This document shows positions 52,665 to 62,366 of a stretch of 64,000 nucleotides of DNA, piece by piece. The notes beneath the pieces were generated by a model. It saw only the letters and a list, made by a program, of their open reading frames with translations, had not been told where the DNA came from and made no database searches. The translations under genes were made by a program, and so were the position numbers. Numbering within the stretch: the stretch's first letter is position 1; each line of letters starts with the position of its first letter. Origin of the DNA: Buttiauxella izardii (GTDB lineage Bacteria; Pseudomonadota; Gammaproteobacteria; Enterobacterales; Enterobacteriaceae); NCBI RefSeq assembly GCF_003601925.1, contig NZ_QZWH01000006.1:62001-126000 (forward strand), given 5' to 3'.

Positions 52665-52797
52665 AGTGTTTTCAGACGTTAGGTATTAACGCATTATAAC
52701 GGAAATCACCAGTGATTGGCGCGGGCCTGATATTCAAGTAGTATTGACACGCACATTACAAATCATTAACAAAAAGAAGCGCTCGAAGGAGAGGTTA

Positions 52798-58560: not shown

Positions 58561-59484
58561 TTAAACTTCTTCTGGCTGTTCTTCTTTCTCAGGTTCTTTA
58601 TAGGAAAGAAGCTTGCAAAGCTTATTGATCACACCAGTCATAATGAAGAGATCAATACCTGCCGCCTGGCGCCATACGAACGCTTTATCATCTTCGGCAT
58701 TTGCATCGGAACTTTTGGTATCAATGCGGCGAAAGTGGAAGTTTTCGGTAAGAACGAAGCTGGCGCCGTCGCTATATAGCTCGATGCTATCAACGCTGAA
58801 CCCACTATTTAGGCTCTCTTCTATTTCGGAAACCACTGAATGGTGATCTGCTGAATAACGGATAGTTTCTTTAGTCTCGGCCTTGCGTGAAAGCTGCATC
58901 ACGCTACCAACCTCGAACCCATCAAAAGCTTCACTGTCGCCGGCAATGTAACTCTTGAGTCGAGTGGTCAGGCCGTTCTTCACATCGCTGATATGAATGG
59001 TCTTGGTTTCAATCGAGCCGACGACTTTAACCAGCATCGAGCACAGTACATTCGCGTAGTGCTTACTGGTTGTGTTAACCATCAATAGGTTTTCTTCAGC
59101 CTGGTACAGCGCATAGATCAGCGAAGTTTTCACGAAAGCTTGTTTGCAGAGGTCCACTTTTACAGTGTCGATAACCTGCTGCTTTTCGATCTTGGAAATG
59201 CGCGCACCAAAGCGGCCTTCGATTGAGGCAATGCGTTCCAGCACTGTCTTTTTAATAACTGGCTTTGGAATGATCTTCTCGTCGATACGAAGACAAATAG
59301 CGTAACCATTGACGATCGGGGTGACGATTTCGCCAGTAATTGGATTCTCTACAAAGCTGTAGCGAATGAATTCAGTGTCGCCAATTTCTGAGTAGGGCAA
59401 TTCAGCAAGGTGCTGATTGATATTGTCCACGCCAGGCAATGTAGCTTTGTAGACGATGGCATTTTTCAGTTTTGAAACTTTCAC
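58561..59484 (-). CDS. RdgC-like recombination-associated protein, phage-encoded
   Basis: 307 residues from GTG 59484, which has GGAG upstream; an ATG farther upstream would add ten residues unlike RdgC. Resemblance to RdgC runs along the protein: GYAICLRIDEKIIPKPVIKK, ERIASIEGRFGARISKIEK and the end IDLFIMTGVINKLCKLL. RdgC forms a ring on double-stranded DNA and restrains RecA. A phage copy could guide phage recombination. First gene of the left operon after the long PL leader. Confidence 0.8.
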   Translation of the reverse strand: MKVSKLKNAIVYKATLPGVDNINQHLAELPYSEIGDTEFIRYSFVENPITGEIVTPIVNGYAICLRIDEKIIPKPVIKKTVLERIASIEGRFGARISKIEKQQVIDTVKVDLCKQAFVKTSLIYALYQAEENLLMVNTTSKHYANVLCSMLVKVVGSIETKTIHISDVKNGLTTRLKSYIAGDSEAFDGFEVGSVMQLSRKAETKETIRYSADHHSVVSEIEESLNSGFSVDSIELYSDGASFVLTENFHFRRIDTKSSDANAEDDKAFVWRQAAGIDLFIMTGVINKLCKLLSYKEPEKEEQPEEV

Positions 59485-59806: not shown

Positions 59807-60295
59807 GTGATCGCTGAATTTTCTGCGGCTCTTACAGCCCTCAAAGAGACTACTGGTCTCGTAAAAGTAATAAGTGATGCTAAAACGGATGCTGAAATTA
59901 AAGCGGCTACCTTTGAGCTACAGAACAAACTATTAGCTATTCAGTCTGACTGTTTCATCCTTGGTGATGCGATTCGATCTCGCGACGAAGAAGTAATGCT
60001 TCTCAAAGCAAAAGTTGCTGAGTTTGAAGAGTTTAAATCCCAAACAGAAGGTTATGTTCTTAATAATCTTGAATCTGGTACGTTTGTGTATTCTAAGAAA
60101 CAGATCGTGGGCGATACTGAAACTACGGTGCATCTTTGCCCACAATGTTTTACCAAAAAGGTAATATCGATTCTTCAGCCAACTGGTGAGCCTGCGTATA
60201 ACTCCCATACGAATAAGTATTATTTTCAATCTAGGTGCCACAGTTGCACCTCCTTATTTCCAATGAATGTTTCAGCTTACAAACCAGTTTGGTAA
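59807..60295 (+). CDS. Zinc-ribbon-like protein in the sieB position
   Basis: 162 residues from GTG 59807, with AAGAAGAG upstream; longer starts lack a ribosome site. The N-terminal two thirds are helical with a likely coiled coil at about 30-75. The C-terminal part has two Cys pairs, Cys111-PQ-Cys114 and Cys144-HS-Cys147, as in a zinc ribbon. I do not recognise a named family. It is transcribed against the PL operon, at the place where lambda and P22 carry sieB, so expression in the lysogen is likely. No resemblance to SieB itself, which is a membrane protein. Confidence 0.75.
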   Translation: MIAEFSAALTALKETTGLVKVISDAKTDAEIKAATFELQNKLLAIQSDCFILGDAIRSRDEEVMLLKAKVAEFEEFKSQTEGYVLNNLESGTFVYSKKQIVGDTETTVHLCPQCFTKKVISILQPTGEPAYNSHTNKYYFQSRCHSCTSLFPMNVSAYKPVW

Positions 60296-60322: not shown

Positions 60323-60429
60323 TAAGCGTCCAGTAGGGCGCTTTTTTGTTGCTTGCGAATCATCCCCATCTTCATACGCCTGGGGCGGCTACTTCGTGGG
60401 CGTCCTGCCTATTCGCTGCTGATGATGTG

Positions 60430-60501
60430 AATATACAAAATGTATTTTATAAATGCAATACAAATTGTATATTTCAACTTTGACTTGTTAACGTTTTGTA
60501 T
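60430..60501 (-). promoter_or_regulatory. OL/PL: left operators and promoter
   Basis: Operators: ATACAAAATGTAT (60433-60445), ATACAAATTGTAT (60458-60470) and the degenerate ATACAAAACGTTA, read leftward (60489-60501). The leftward promoter PL has -35 TTGCAT (60453-60458), a 17-bp spacer and -10 TATATT (60430-60435), overlapped by the first two operators. Centre spacings are 25 and 31 bp, close to 26 and 33 at OR. Confidence 0.75.
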
Positions 60502-60611: not shown

Positions 60612-60640
60612 AAAACCCGGCTCGGTAGCCGGGTTTTGAA
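60612..60640 (-). terminator. Terminator between the rex-position genes and PL
   Basis: AAAACCCGGCT-ACCG-AGCCGGGTTTT, followed by a T-rich stretch leftward. It ends the repressor transcript before OL. Confidence 0.85.
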
Positions 60641-60663: not shown

Positions 60664-61230
60664 TTATGGAGTAGGGGTCCCTGTTATAGCTCCATAAATT
60701 TTATATATGGTAAATGCGATTGCAGGGATCCCCAACGCCCATTTGATAATGTCTAGTTTTGCATCGCCAAGAGATTTCTCGAACTTATGTTCTTGAATTT
60801 GCAGTGCGGCGTTTAATTTTATTTCTTGAGCCCCAAAGTGCTTATCAAGGGAACCTTGTTGAGATTTAATCGCATCTTTTACGTCGCGCAAATCTGAGCG
60901 CATTTGCTCGCGCCATTCCGACATTTCGCGACGCATCTCTGCCGCAACGGCACCAACTTCGGCTTTGTTTTGAGCTAGTTTTGCGTCTAGCTCTTCTCTT
61001 GAGATTGTCATTACATCCACCTCATGGGTTTCCTGATGCTTATCAATTGGACTTTCCAGTACGGTGTTAGTTCTTACAAACTCCAATATAGCAGCAGTTT
61101 CGGATACTGGTGGGATGGAGGCAGTTGTTACTTTTTCATGATAGGCAGGCATGAAAAAAGCGTCAACACTAGAATTTTCCAACTGACTTTCAGATGTAGA
61201 AATCCGAACCTTCGAAACGCTGGCTTCCAT
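60664..61230 (-). CDS. Membrane-anchored coiled-coil protein in the rexB position
   Basis: 188 residues. Residues 1-73 are polar and unfamiliar. From Met74 (MTISREELDAKLAQNK) comes a long charged helix/coiled coil (to about 160) and a single C-terminal membrane segment (IIKWALGIPAIAFTIYKIYGAI). A strong GAGGTGG site before Met74 (ATG 61011) suggests a second, 115-residue product. The gene is 6 bp after its partner and downstream of the repressor, where lambda has rexB, also a membrane protein. No family is recognised. Confidence 0.7.
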   Translation of the reverse strand: MEASVSKVRISTSESQLENSSVDAFFMPAYHEKVTTASIPPVSETAAILEFVRTNTVLESPIDKHQETHEVDVMTISREELDAKLAQNKAEVGAVAAEMRREMSEWREQMRSDLRDVKDAIKSQQGSLDKHFGAQEIKLNAALQIQEHKFEKSLGDAKLDIIKWALGIPAIAFTIYKIYGAITGTPTP

Positions 61231-61236
61231 AACTTA

Positions 61237-61527
61237 TTATTTCTTCTCAGAAGGAGTCAGCAAACTAGCATCTGTTACTGGAGCATTAAGTATCGCTTGC
61301 GCCATATTTCGCGCCATAGACATTGGCAAAGTAACACTTTGACCTGCCTCAAGATAAAGACCTGCAACGGCATCACGCGTTCCTGGTTCAGGCATGTTCG
61401 TATGAGCTAACATGTGGCGGCAAAAGGTAATTTTGCAATATTCATTGTCTCCAATCTTCATTCCTGCCGTGATGAAAACATCTGCAAAACTATCCACGTA
61501 ATCTTTGGACTTAATGATATCTGTCAT
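61237..61527 (-). CDS. Small soluble protein in the rexA position
   Basis: 96 residues from ATG 61527, behind AGGTGG. No signal or membrane segment. The pattern, a beta-rich half (ADVFITAG, YCKITFCRHML), then SVTLPMSMARNMAQAILNA, faintly recalls DUF3467-type small proteins; this is weak. It is co-directional with the repressor and 95 bp downstream of it, so it would be made in the lysogen. Function unknown; the position suggests superinfection exclusion. Confidence 0.68.
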   Translation of the reverse strand: MTDIIKSKDYVDSFADVFITAGMKIGDNEYCKITFCRHMLAHTNMPEPGTRDAVAGLYLEAGQSVTLPMSMARNMAQAILNAPVTDASLLTPSEKK

Positions 61528-61622
61528 GAATCCCACCTGTGTAAATTTATGTTAGTTAGACAATATGTATTTTAAAACGAAATCAGCCACGATGCCGACA
61601 CGAAGAAATATTAGGGTCACTG

Positions 61623-62276
61623 CTAAACCAGTCGCAGCTTGGTTTCCACCGCCACACCAATGGTTTTACAATTTCCGTTAACCGGAACCAGTGGCCAAGC
61701 CGGATTCAAACCTTTCAAATACTTCTGTCCACCATCAATGATTAGCTTCTTGAATGTTGCTTCATTGGAATCTGACAACTTCGCTATCACTAGGCTGCCA
61801 TTTACCGGCTCTCGGCCTGTATCAAACAGAACGAATGTACCTTCTGGCACACTCAGGCCAACTGGAGCTGTCATTGAGTCACCTTCAACTTCCAGCCAGA
61901 AGGCATCTCCCTGAATATGGGCATCTGACTCAAGCCACAGGTCAATATCTTTCAGGGTGTACGGTTCACATGCCTCGCTCCAAGAACCGGCCTGTACACT
62001 ACTGATTACCGGATATTTCTTTCCTGGAGAATAGGGGCCAACATACTCGACATCACCCTTAATGTTTTCATCAATGATCAATCCACCGGCACCAACAGAG
62101 AAATTTCGTTTACCAAGAAATTGAAGGATTTTCGATATCTCTCCGAGACTGGGCTCTCTCCGGGCATTCAGCCAATGACTAACTGCACCTTTCGTTATGC
62201 CAAGGTGTTCTGCTAATTGTTCCTGATTAACTCCCTGACTTTTCATCAAGGACTTAGCTAAATCGTACCATTTCAT
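61623..62276 (-). CDS. cI: CI-type prophage repressor with S24 self-cleavage domain
   Basis: 217 residues from ATG 62276, which has AGG seven bases upstream; an ATG at 62282 is possible, and longer starts would run into operator OR. HTH at about 18-37 (NQEQLAEHLGITKGAVSHWL). LexA-like domain with cleavage site Ala96-Gly97 (VQAGSW), nucleophile Ser134 (EGDSM) and Lys176 (ATFKKL). It should be inactivated by RecA in the SOS response, so the prophage is probably inducible. Confidence 0.9.
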   Translation of the reverse strand: MKWYDLAKSLMKSQGVNQEQLAEHLGITKGAVSHWLNARREPSLGEISKILQFLGKRNFSVGAGGLIIDENIKGDVEYVGPYSPGKKYPVISSVQAGSWSEACEPYTLKDIDLWLESDAHIQGDAFWLEVEGDSMTAPVGLSVPEGTFVLFDTGREPVNGSLVIAKLSDSNEATFKKLIIDGGQKYLKGLNPAWPLVPVNGNCKTIGVAVETKLRLV

Positions 62277-62291
62277 AGTCATACCTAAATG

Positions 62292-62366
62292 ATACAAGTT
62301 GTATACCTATAATCGAGACACAAAACGTATAACATTCTTGTGCATTAAGAATACAAAATGTATATT
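62292..62366. promoter_or_regulatory. OR/PR: right operators and promoter
   Basis: Operators: ATACAAGTTGTAT (62292-62304, perfect palindrome), ACACAAAACGTAT (62318-62330) and ATACAAAATGTAT (62351-62363). PR has -35 TTGTGC (62338-62343), 17-bp spacer and -10 TATATT (62361-62366). The block ATACAAAATGTATATT is shared exactly with PL. Confidence 0.78.

Follow-up and report, generated by a model that had tools for sequence, protein, structure and literature searches.

Organization of the Locus

The window, by which we mean the whole 64-kb stretch of DNA that was analyzed, carries a prophage next to an ORF at 52744−54048 that we take, by eye, to be icd-like. On the minus strand of this prophage, a CI-type repressor is followed in turn by two small genes, a terminator, and OL-like sites (Table 1). 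The repressor matches the Pfam families Peptidase_S24 (E = 2.1e-22) and HTH_3 (E = 9.6e-12). Gene 1 starts 95 bp beyond it at an ATG, 9 bases later than the GTG given in the list of open reading frames, and is separated from gene 2 by 6 bp (61231−61236). A 66-nt stretch 3′ of gene 2 contains the terminator hairpin and folds at −21.5 kcal/mol (z = −4.2), a value equaled by 0 of 200 shuffled sequences; the hairpin is absent from the output of a pattern scan. The coordinates, the Pfam matches, and the folding confirm the layout given by the first-pass annotation, namely, two genes on the repressor's strand, 6 bp apart, downstream of it and closed by a terminator before OL.

Table 1. Features of the two-gene module and its flanks, in positions of the window
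Feature	Position	Strand	Basis
CI-type repressor (HTH and S24 peptidase), upstream of the module	61623..62276	-	Pfam
Gene 1, 96 aa, ATG start; predicted soluble bbba "head", type A	61237..61527	-	
Gene 2, 188 aa, ATG start; disordered N-terminus, coiled-coil stalk, C-terminal hydrophobic helix	60664..61230	-	
Gene 2 residues 22−33, VDAFFMPAYHEK; proposed docking motif tied to gene 1 type	61132..61167	-	docking inferred
Gene 2 residues 78−164; stalk, exchangeable between modules	60739..60999	-	comparison and model
Gene 2 residues 165−183; likely membrane anchor, hydropathy 1.37	60682..60738	-	hydropathy and model
Intrinsic terminator closing the operon, hairpin and U tail	60612..60637	-	folding
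Two operator-like sites on the OL side, starting at 60433 and 60458	60433..60470	.	pattern ATACAANNTGTAT
OR-like sites at 62292 and 62351, and at 62318 with two mismatches	62292..62363	.	pattern ATACAANNTGTAT
Operator-like site between repressor stop and gene 1, one mismatch to ATACAANNTGTAT	61558..61570	+	

The operator pattern was derived from the window's own sites, so that its matches at 60433, 60458, 62292, and 62351 arise partly by construction. Apart from the OL and OR clusters, the site in front of gene 1 is the sole further match in the 64 kb at ≤1 mismatch; at ≤2 mismatches, there are 23 matches as against a mean of 14.6 in shuffled sequences. This site may place a promoter of the module under the control of the repressor. 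On the plus strand, opposite to the module, the gene at 59807−60295 encodes a 162-aa protein with a CPxC...CxSC zinc-ribbon-like end that belongs to phrog_1244 (E = 1.8e-44), a family without assigned function, and is followed by a terminator-like hairpin at 60324−60343. A phage-borne RdgC-like protein (PF04381, E = 2.2e-37) is encoded at 58561−59514 on the minus strand.

Predicted Products of Gene 1 and Gene 2

The gene 2 product is a REELDAKL-type coiled coil with a C-terminal hydrophobic helix, as is HK97 gp48 (phrog_5820). In its AlphaFold model (mean pLDDT 61.5, pTM 0.24), residues 1−77 lack confident structure, with a short helix at 46−50, and residues 78−183 form a single helix. The best 19-residue hydrophobic window begins at residue 165 with the mean hydropathy given in Table 1, as compared with 1.4−2.7 in relatives. 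The first-pass annotation had described a soluble first product and a second one with a coiled coil and a membrane helix; the coiled coil is borne out, and the C-terminal membrane helix is likely but weak. Comparison of the stalk with that of locus L050 over 108 codons gives 45 identical, 46 synonymous, and 17 non-synonymous codons, from which we judge that the stalk is under protein-level selection. The PHROG families matched by gene 2, phrog_5820 (E = 7.9e-18, residues 64−128) and 14825, both at E of about 8e-18, are both labeled "unknown function". An assignment to the CCDC90-like coiled-coil family (PF07798) was rejected at E = 5.7e-5, with 23.5 bits against a cutoff of 33.5, and scaffold, spanin, tape-measure, XhlA, and MakE matches of gene 2 or its relatives were set aside as composition matches, below the cutoff where one exists. 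The first-pass annotation had named homology to phage structural or replication functions as evidence against its reading, and no such match lies above the cutoff in the profile libraries.

The model of the gene 1 product shows three strands and one helix (mean pLDDT 63.6, best blocks 76−84, pTM 0.46). Searches of Pfam, NCBIfam, and PADLOC found no significant relative of it, and it has no recognizable enzymatic or binding domain in the profile libraries searched. PHROG returns weak matches alone (best E = 0.0088), PADLOC 2.0.0 returns 0 families at E ≤ 1 for either gene, and PDB sequence searches with one query per partner type, including a gene 1 family profile, reach E = 0.26 at best. Fold comparisons with this weak model gave no usable candidate: Foldseek against the PDB found none at E ≤ 0.001 (best 0.03, an intein endonuclease), BFVD gave no match (best 0.013), and the VIA-align scores for COMMD (Z = 4.6) and a PC4 homologue (Z = 3.9) are not meaningful at such a level. 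A suspected likeness to DUF3467 was unsupported in Pfam. Neither protein is given a convincing function by any library searched.

The pair has a counterpart in HK97 gp49−gp48 (phrog_26809 and phrog_5820), which has the same gene order and the same position after cI, whereas the N-terminal segment and the stalk of gp48 differ from those of gene 2. Gene 1 and gp49 share 23% identity, an ITF..H block, and a similar length and layout. Gene 1 has no match to phrog_26809 at E ≤ 1, and gp49 scores z = 2.3−6.1 against four window-type partners. A remote relationship between gene 1 and gp49 is probable from the alignment and the context. The pair, which the first-pass annotation called unrecognized and undescribed, is annotated in GenBank in its HK97 form, while the description holds for its function in the open-access literature, in which we found no experiments on gp49/gp48-type genes.

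Occurrence of the Module

A tblastn search of 50,697 phage records with gene 2 gave 10 matches, in HK97, HK225, PDP110P1, HK244, HK542, and Klebsiella phage 6 LV-2017, some in several versions, and HK97 gp48 as the query adds Klebsiella phage ST15-VIM1phi2.1; gene 1 has no match in these records at E ≤ 1e-3. HK97 gp48 itself is found with gene 2 at E = 3e-7 (39.8% identity over residues 67−145). In the phage records that we opened, the order is repressor, small gene, gene 2, with the pair of 6 LV-2017 unannotated. Gene 2 relatives stand after a small repressor-following gene in HK97, HK225, HK542/HK244, the two Klebsiella phages, and E. coli KMi029. A search with the HK97 gp49−gp48 DNA hit 55 of 5426 complete E. 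coli genomes (≥80% coverage in 52), and one with the window pair hit 3 of the 5426, through gene 1 only and at 68.8% DNA identity. Five IMG/VR contigs contain gene 1; one of them is 100% identical and is presumably the source. The gene 2 stalk profile, which has matches in 5 of 392 family genomes (source included), led to gene 1 in one more genome, L020. At the limits used, gene 1 and gene 2 occur in none of 98 relatives besides the source, and a gene 1 pattern search of genome contigs confirmed 0 of 234 pattern stretches as relatives. Gene 2 also matches two Providencia plasmid records, and in the one opened, a module of the family (L016, 4523−5471) adjoins a repressor; the record is that of a conjugative IncC plasmid from Providencia stuartii and includes a lambdoid-like replication/repressor region.

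The two genes keep company. In the viral contigs to which gene 1 led, gene 2 is adjacent in 31 of 31 (27/27 type A and 4/4 zinc-ribbon), the four zinc-ribbon contigs and the source contig having been found earlier through the gene 2 stalk in IMG/VR. The expectation that the pair always occurs together holds for these loci. In the same contigs, an ORF read by eye as a repressor precedes the loci (L030 shows only the end of the ORF); some other modules lie, by eye, beside integrase-, tail-, or antirepressor-like ORFs. A search for phrog_5893, the partner in HK542, was positive in 7 of 295 family genomes; directly after it, in 7/7, comes a small gene that combines a coiled coil with a hydrophobic helix, as judged by eye and hydropathy. 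The zinc-ribbon family phrog_4293 occurs at 23 places in 21 of the 295 genomes, with a coiled-coil/hydrophobic gene following it at 18, of which L069 and L076 are apparently truncated; a different membrane gene stands at one further place (L078) and none at the remaining four, three of them from one genus. Class-wide searches, run without a positive control, found phrog_4293 in 0 of 274 genomes and phrog_5893 in 0 of 229. A coiled-coil gene beside chromosomal genes in L022 has no partner and was set aside.

Placement and layout vary among these modules. Modules in L070, L075, L021, and L057 lie, by eye, beside tail- or baseplate-like ORFs and not beside a repressor, and the stalk of L070/L075 resembles by eye that of L059, whose partner is of a different type. 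In the P22-like phage N7, a zinc-ribbon gene and a membrane coiled-coil gene adjoin arc/ant (L014, 3974−4814), a second repressor-linked position; this is presumably the region in which P22 keeps sieA. In three zinc-ribbon modules (N7, L080, and L081), the hydrophobic segment precedes the coiled coil instead of following it.

Partner Types, N-Termini, and Stalks

The gene 2 architecture occurs with three kinds of partner: the bbba type of the window and HK97, a zinc-ribbon-like type, and a third type in HK542 (phrog_5893), which has no sequence relation to the others and is beta-rich by eye. The HK542/HK244 pair and the zinc-ribbon pairs share with the window pair the architecture of gene 2 (in most), the closeness of the two genes, and often the position after a repressor, but their gene 1 is unrelated, and many have a short gene 2 N-terminus with a Gly-rich linker. 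The gene 2 stalk of the window recurs in the IMG/VR contigs L009−L012 at 76−82% identity over residues 70−186, while the N-terminus and gene 1 differ; gene 1 of these contigs has two CxxC pairs and was read as a zinc ribbon. In E. coli KMi029, gene 1 is window-like and gene 2 carries VDAFHMPAYHEK, as compared with VDAFFMPAYHEK in the window, but the stalk changes to another type after its first part.

These relationships were put in numbers with 34 modules chosen by hand from those then found; L048 was dropped before pairs were counted, leaving 33 modules and 528 pairs. Near-duplicates (L026, L027, most HK97-type loci, L045, L046, L052, L053, and L061) and modules that were parsed at a later stage or gave no usable pair (L066, L069−L073, L075, L078, L079, L082, and L083) are not part of the set. 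The boundary between N-terminus and stalk came from a regular expression or was set to residue 65, and it is rough for L060, L077, N7, L080, and L081; for L059, an internal Met served as the start of gene 2, and z-scores come from 60 shuffles. Similar N-termini (z ≥ 5) were found in 13 pairs, and in 13/13 the partners are similar as well (z ≥ 8); these pairs form four clusters (six window-type, four HK97-type, one zinc-ribbon, and two phrog_5893). At z ≥ 4, there are 17 such pairs, with the partner at z ≥ 8 in 15 and below 8 in two. The stalk behaves differently: of the 85 pairs with stalk z ≥ 15, partners are similar (z ≥ 8) in 23 and unrelated (z < 4) in 56, and none of these 56 reaches N-terminal z ≥ 4. 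The stalks of the window and L050, for example, match at z = 78, with z = 2.9 for the partners and 0.6 for the N-termini, and those of L065 (zinc ribbon) and L054 (phrog_5893) at z = 47, with 0.1 for the partners, whereas L021 and L058 have z = 85 for the partners, 9.5 for the N-termini, and 5.9 for the stalks. Read from the partner side, 87 pairs have partner z ≥ 8, and only 15 of them have N-terminal z ≥ 4.

The partial rank correlation over the 34 modules is 0.148 between partner and N-terminus given the stalk, reached by 0 of 2000 permutations, and 0.073 between partner and stalk given the N-terminus, reached by 109 of 2000; the coefficients are small, and the permutations treat related modules as independent. 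As far as these comparisons go, the gene 2 N-terminus goes with the partner and the stalk does not, a rule that holds within close partner types. Co-inheritance of this kind is also expected from the physical linkage of neighboring sequence. A second observation bears on this point. The motif VDAxxMPAYHEK is common to gene 2 of the window, L024, L025, and L020, and non-synonymous differences affect 10 of 72 codons in the motif versus 104 of 144 in the 24 codons that follow (four genes, six pairwise comparisons). Linkage alone would give co-inheritance, but a conserved island within a variable segment of four related genes suggests binding, so that the N-terminal motif of the VDAFFMPAYHEK type is a candidate docking site for the gene 1 product.

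The rexAB Slot and Exchange of Whole Cassettes

The layout in the window, a soluble and a membrane gene on the same strand between cI and OL, is that of lambda rexA and rexB. RexA has 279 aa and gene 1 has 96; gene 1 and gene 2 have no sequence similarity to lambda RexA and RexB, and Pfam at E ≤ 1 names neither, in agreement with the first-pass annotation. The same annotation had placed the pair in the rexAB position, and rexAB itself fills this slot behind a related repressor. In L086, from another genus of the same family, a repressor 67% identical to that of the window is followed by a RexA at 546−1385 (minus strand) with 275 of 279 residues identical to those of lambda RexA (PF15969, E = 1.3e-96) and then by an ORF nearly identical to RexB.

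Repressors like that of the window (P0003-like, E ≤ 1e-40) occur in 35 of 246 family genomes, source included, and 30 loci were read; L096 ends right after the repressor, and L114 has no ORF of 70 aa in the slot. By eye, 3 of the 30 slots hold a module of the gene 1/gene 2 family: the source, L113 (the same place as L020), and L090, whose module is phrog_5893-like. Ten slot proteins chosen by hand, eight from seven of the 30 loci and two from phages, were compared with PADLOC, and four of the ten had no match, while the RexA of L086 was among those matched. L095 carries in its slot the PADLOC candidate pair PDC-M63A/B (2175−3580; E = 3.2e-38 and 1.7e-46), L106 has an M78-domain protein with capP/RmrA matches (1e-12 and 1.9e-10), and L088 has a weak NYN match (2.9e-4); a Cas12f match in L105 (1.4e-7) is probably spurious. 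Among phages, Enterobacter phage ENT1 has a repressor 88% identical to that of the window and, by eye, a zinc-ribbon module in the slot, and HK140, HK630, and Midgardsormr38 have related repressors with other genes there. Two reports portray the cI−n interval of lambdoid phages as a hotspot of mosaicism in which rexAB and bstA are found (PMC8585504, PMC7067206), which supports the argument from position.

Whole cassettes move between immunities. Seven HK97-type loci are 99.9−100% identical over 905 bp in 21/21 pairs, while their repressors fall into three groups with 69−78% identity within and 19−29% between groups, values that in some cases come from few aligned columns. When loci of different repressor groups are compared, the identity ends within about 50 bp after gene 2; among L034, L036, and L043, it continues for some 250 bp past gene 2. 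Upstream, it reaches about the end of the repressor in most loci and in L040 ends within 50 bp of gene 1. Since near-identical cassettes stand behind three repressor groups, the module is not part of one particular switch.

Proposed Function and Alternatives

We propose that gene 1 and gene 2 form a prophage accessory ("moron") module, most likely for superinfection exclusion, whose head is interchangeable and tethered to the membrane. That the pair is an accessory module seems to us very probable, and a docked complex at the membrane is a reading toward which we lean; for exclusion as its job, the chances look even, and the proposal as a whole is held tentatively, at slightly less than an even chance. 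A lysogen would probably transcribe the module together with the repressor. The C-terminal helix of the gene 2 product, a coiled-coil rod, would anchor it in the inner membrane and leave the unstructured N-terminus on the cytoplasmic side, where VDAFFMPAYHEK would bind the gene 1 product and keep copies of it at the membrane. Gene 1 would then be the interchangeable active head, which, once tethered, would most likely block a step of a superinfecting phage. The exchange of stalk and membrane helix between modules fits an anchor better than a dedicated pore.

The last point bears on Rex-like abortive infection, in which gene 1 would be a cytosolic sensor of infection and gene 2 a membrane effector that depolarizes or permeabilizes the membrane on a signal from gene 1. 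The shared rexAB slot and the soluble-plus-membrane layout speak for it, and RexABpp of P. putida, a soluble and a membrane protein encoded near a prophage repressor, is reported to act in this way as an abortive-infection system (PMC12894663). RexB, however, is described as an ion channel (PMC10884400), and RexBpp has four predicted helices (PMC12894663), as against one weak C-terminal hydrophobic helix in gene 2. Together with the lack of homology to RexAB and the swapping of stalk and membrane helix between partner types, which is unlike a dedicated pore, this makes a Rex-like mechanism unlikely. We also regard as improbable a lysogenic conversion apart from exclusion, in which tethered heads would alter host stress responses, the envelope, or secretion: modules beside integrase-, tail-, and antirepressor-like ORFs (by eye) are placed as morons are, but the slot is shared, behind the same repressor type, with rexAB and the PADLOC candidates.

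Two further readings have far less to recommend them. A toxin−antitoxin or addiction pair, with gene 2 as the membrane toxin and gene 1 as the soluble antidote, would suit two small genes that are adjacent or overlapping, and some relatives weakly match XhlA (E = 7.8e-4) and the pore-forming subunit MakE (E = 0.0029, 16.7 of 360 bits), both below the cutoff. Yet such matches are common among coiled coils, membrane segments vary between modules, and no toxin−antitoxin family is matched above the cutoff by gene 1 or gene 2, so we consider this reading highly improbable. A regulator of lysogeny, such as a protein that protects the repressor in the manner of 434 Hex (PMC3564112), would be in keeping with the adjoining repressor and the operator-like site before gene 1, but the near-identical cassettes stand behind three unrelated repressor groups and other modules lie away from repressors, and we give it hardly any weight. 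The proposed tethered module also differs from another defense gene of prophages, BstA, which is larger and is not known to have a membrane part. BstA of prophage BTP1 lies downstream of the repressor and is one gene with a KilA-N-like domain (PMC8585504), whereas the module consists of two genes.

A broader form of the proposal, that Enterobacteriaceae prophages share a platform in which a membrane-anchored coiled coil accepts bbba, zinc-ribbon, or phrog_5893-type heads through their own N-terminal motifs, is possible, though we would sooner doubt it than adopt it. Phages would then change their exclusion specificity by swapping head and motif, with the rod kept or changed.

Significance

Public records already list the HK97 pair as hypothetical proteins, and exclusion genes are known from the slot. 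What appears to be new, relative to the open-access literature, is a single architecture across three partner types with a partner-specific N-terminal motif. The best known exclusion system of lambda sits in the rexAB slot, and the module is a recurrent, different occupant of it. Because it is present in the laboratory phage HK97, the module is directly testable. If docking is true, phages would trade specificities by means of a small head and a 12-residue plug, and this would offer a handle on many "hypothetical" prophage gene pairs. The platform reading, if true, would amount to a new class of superinfection exclusion with modular specificity.
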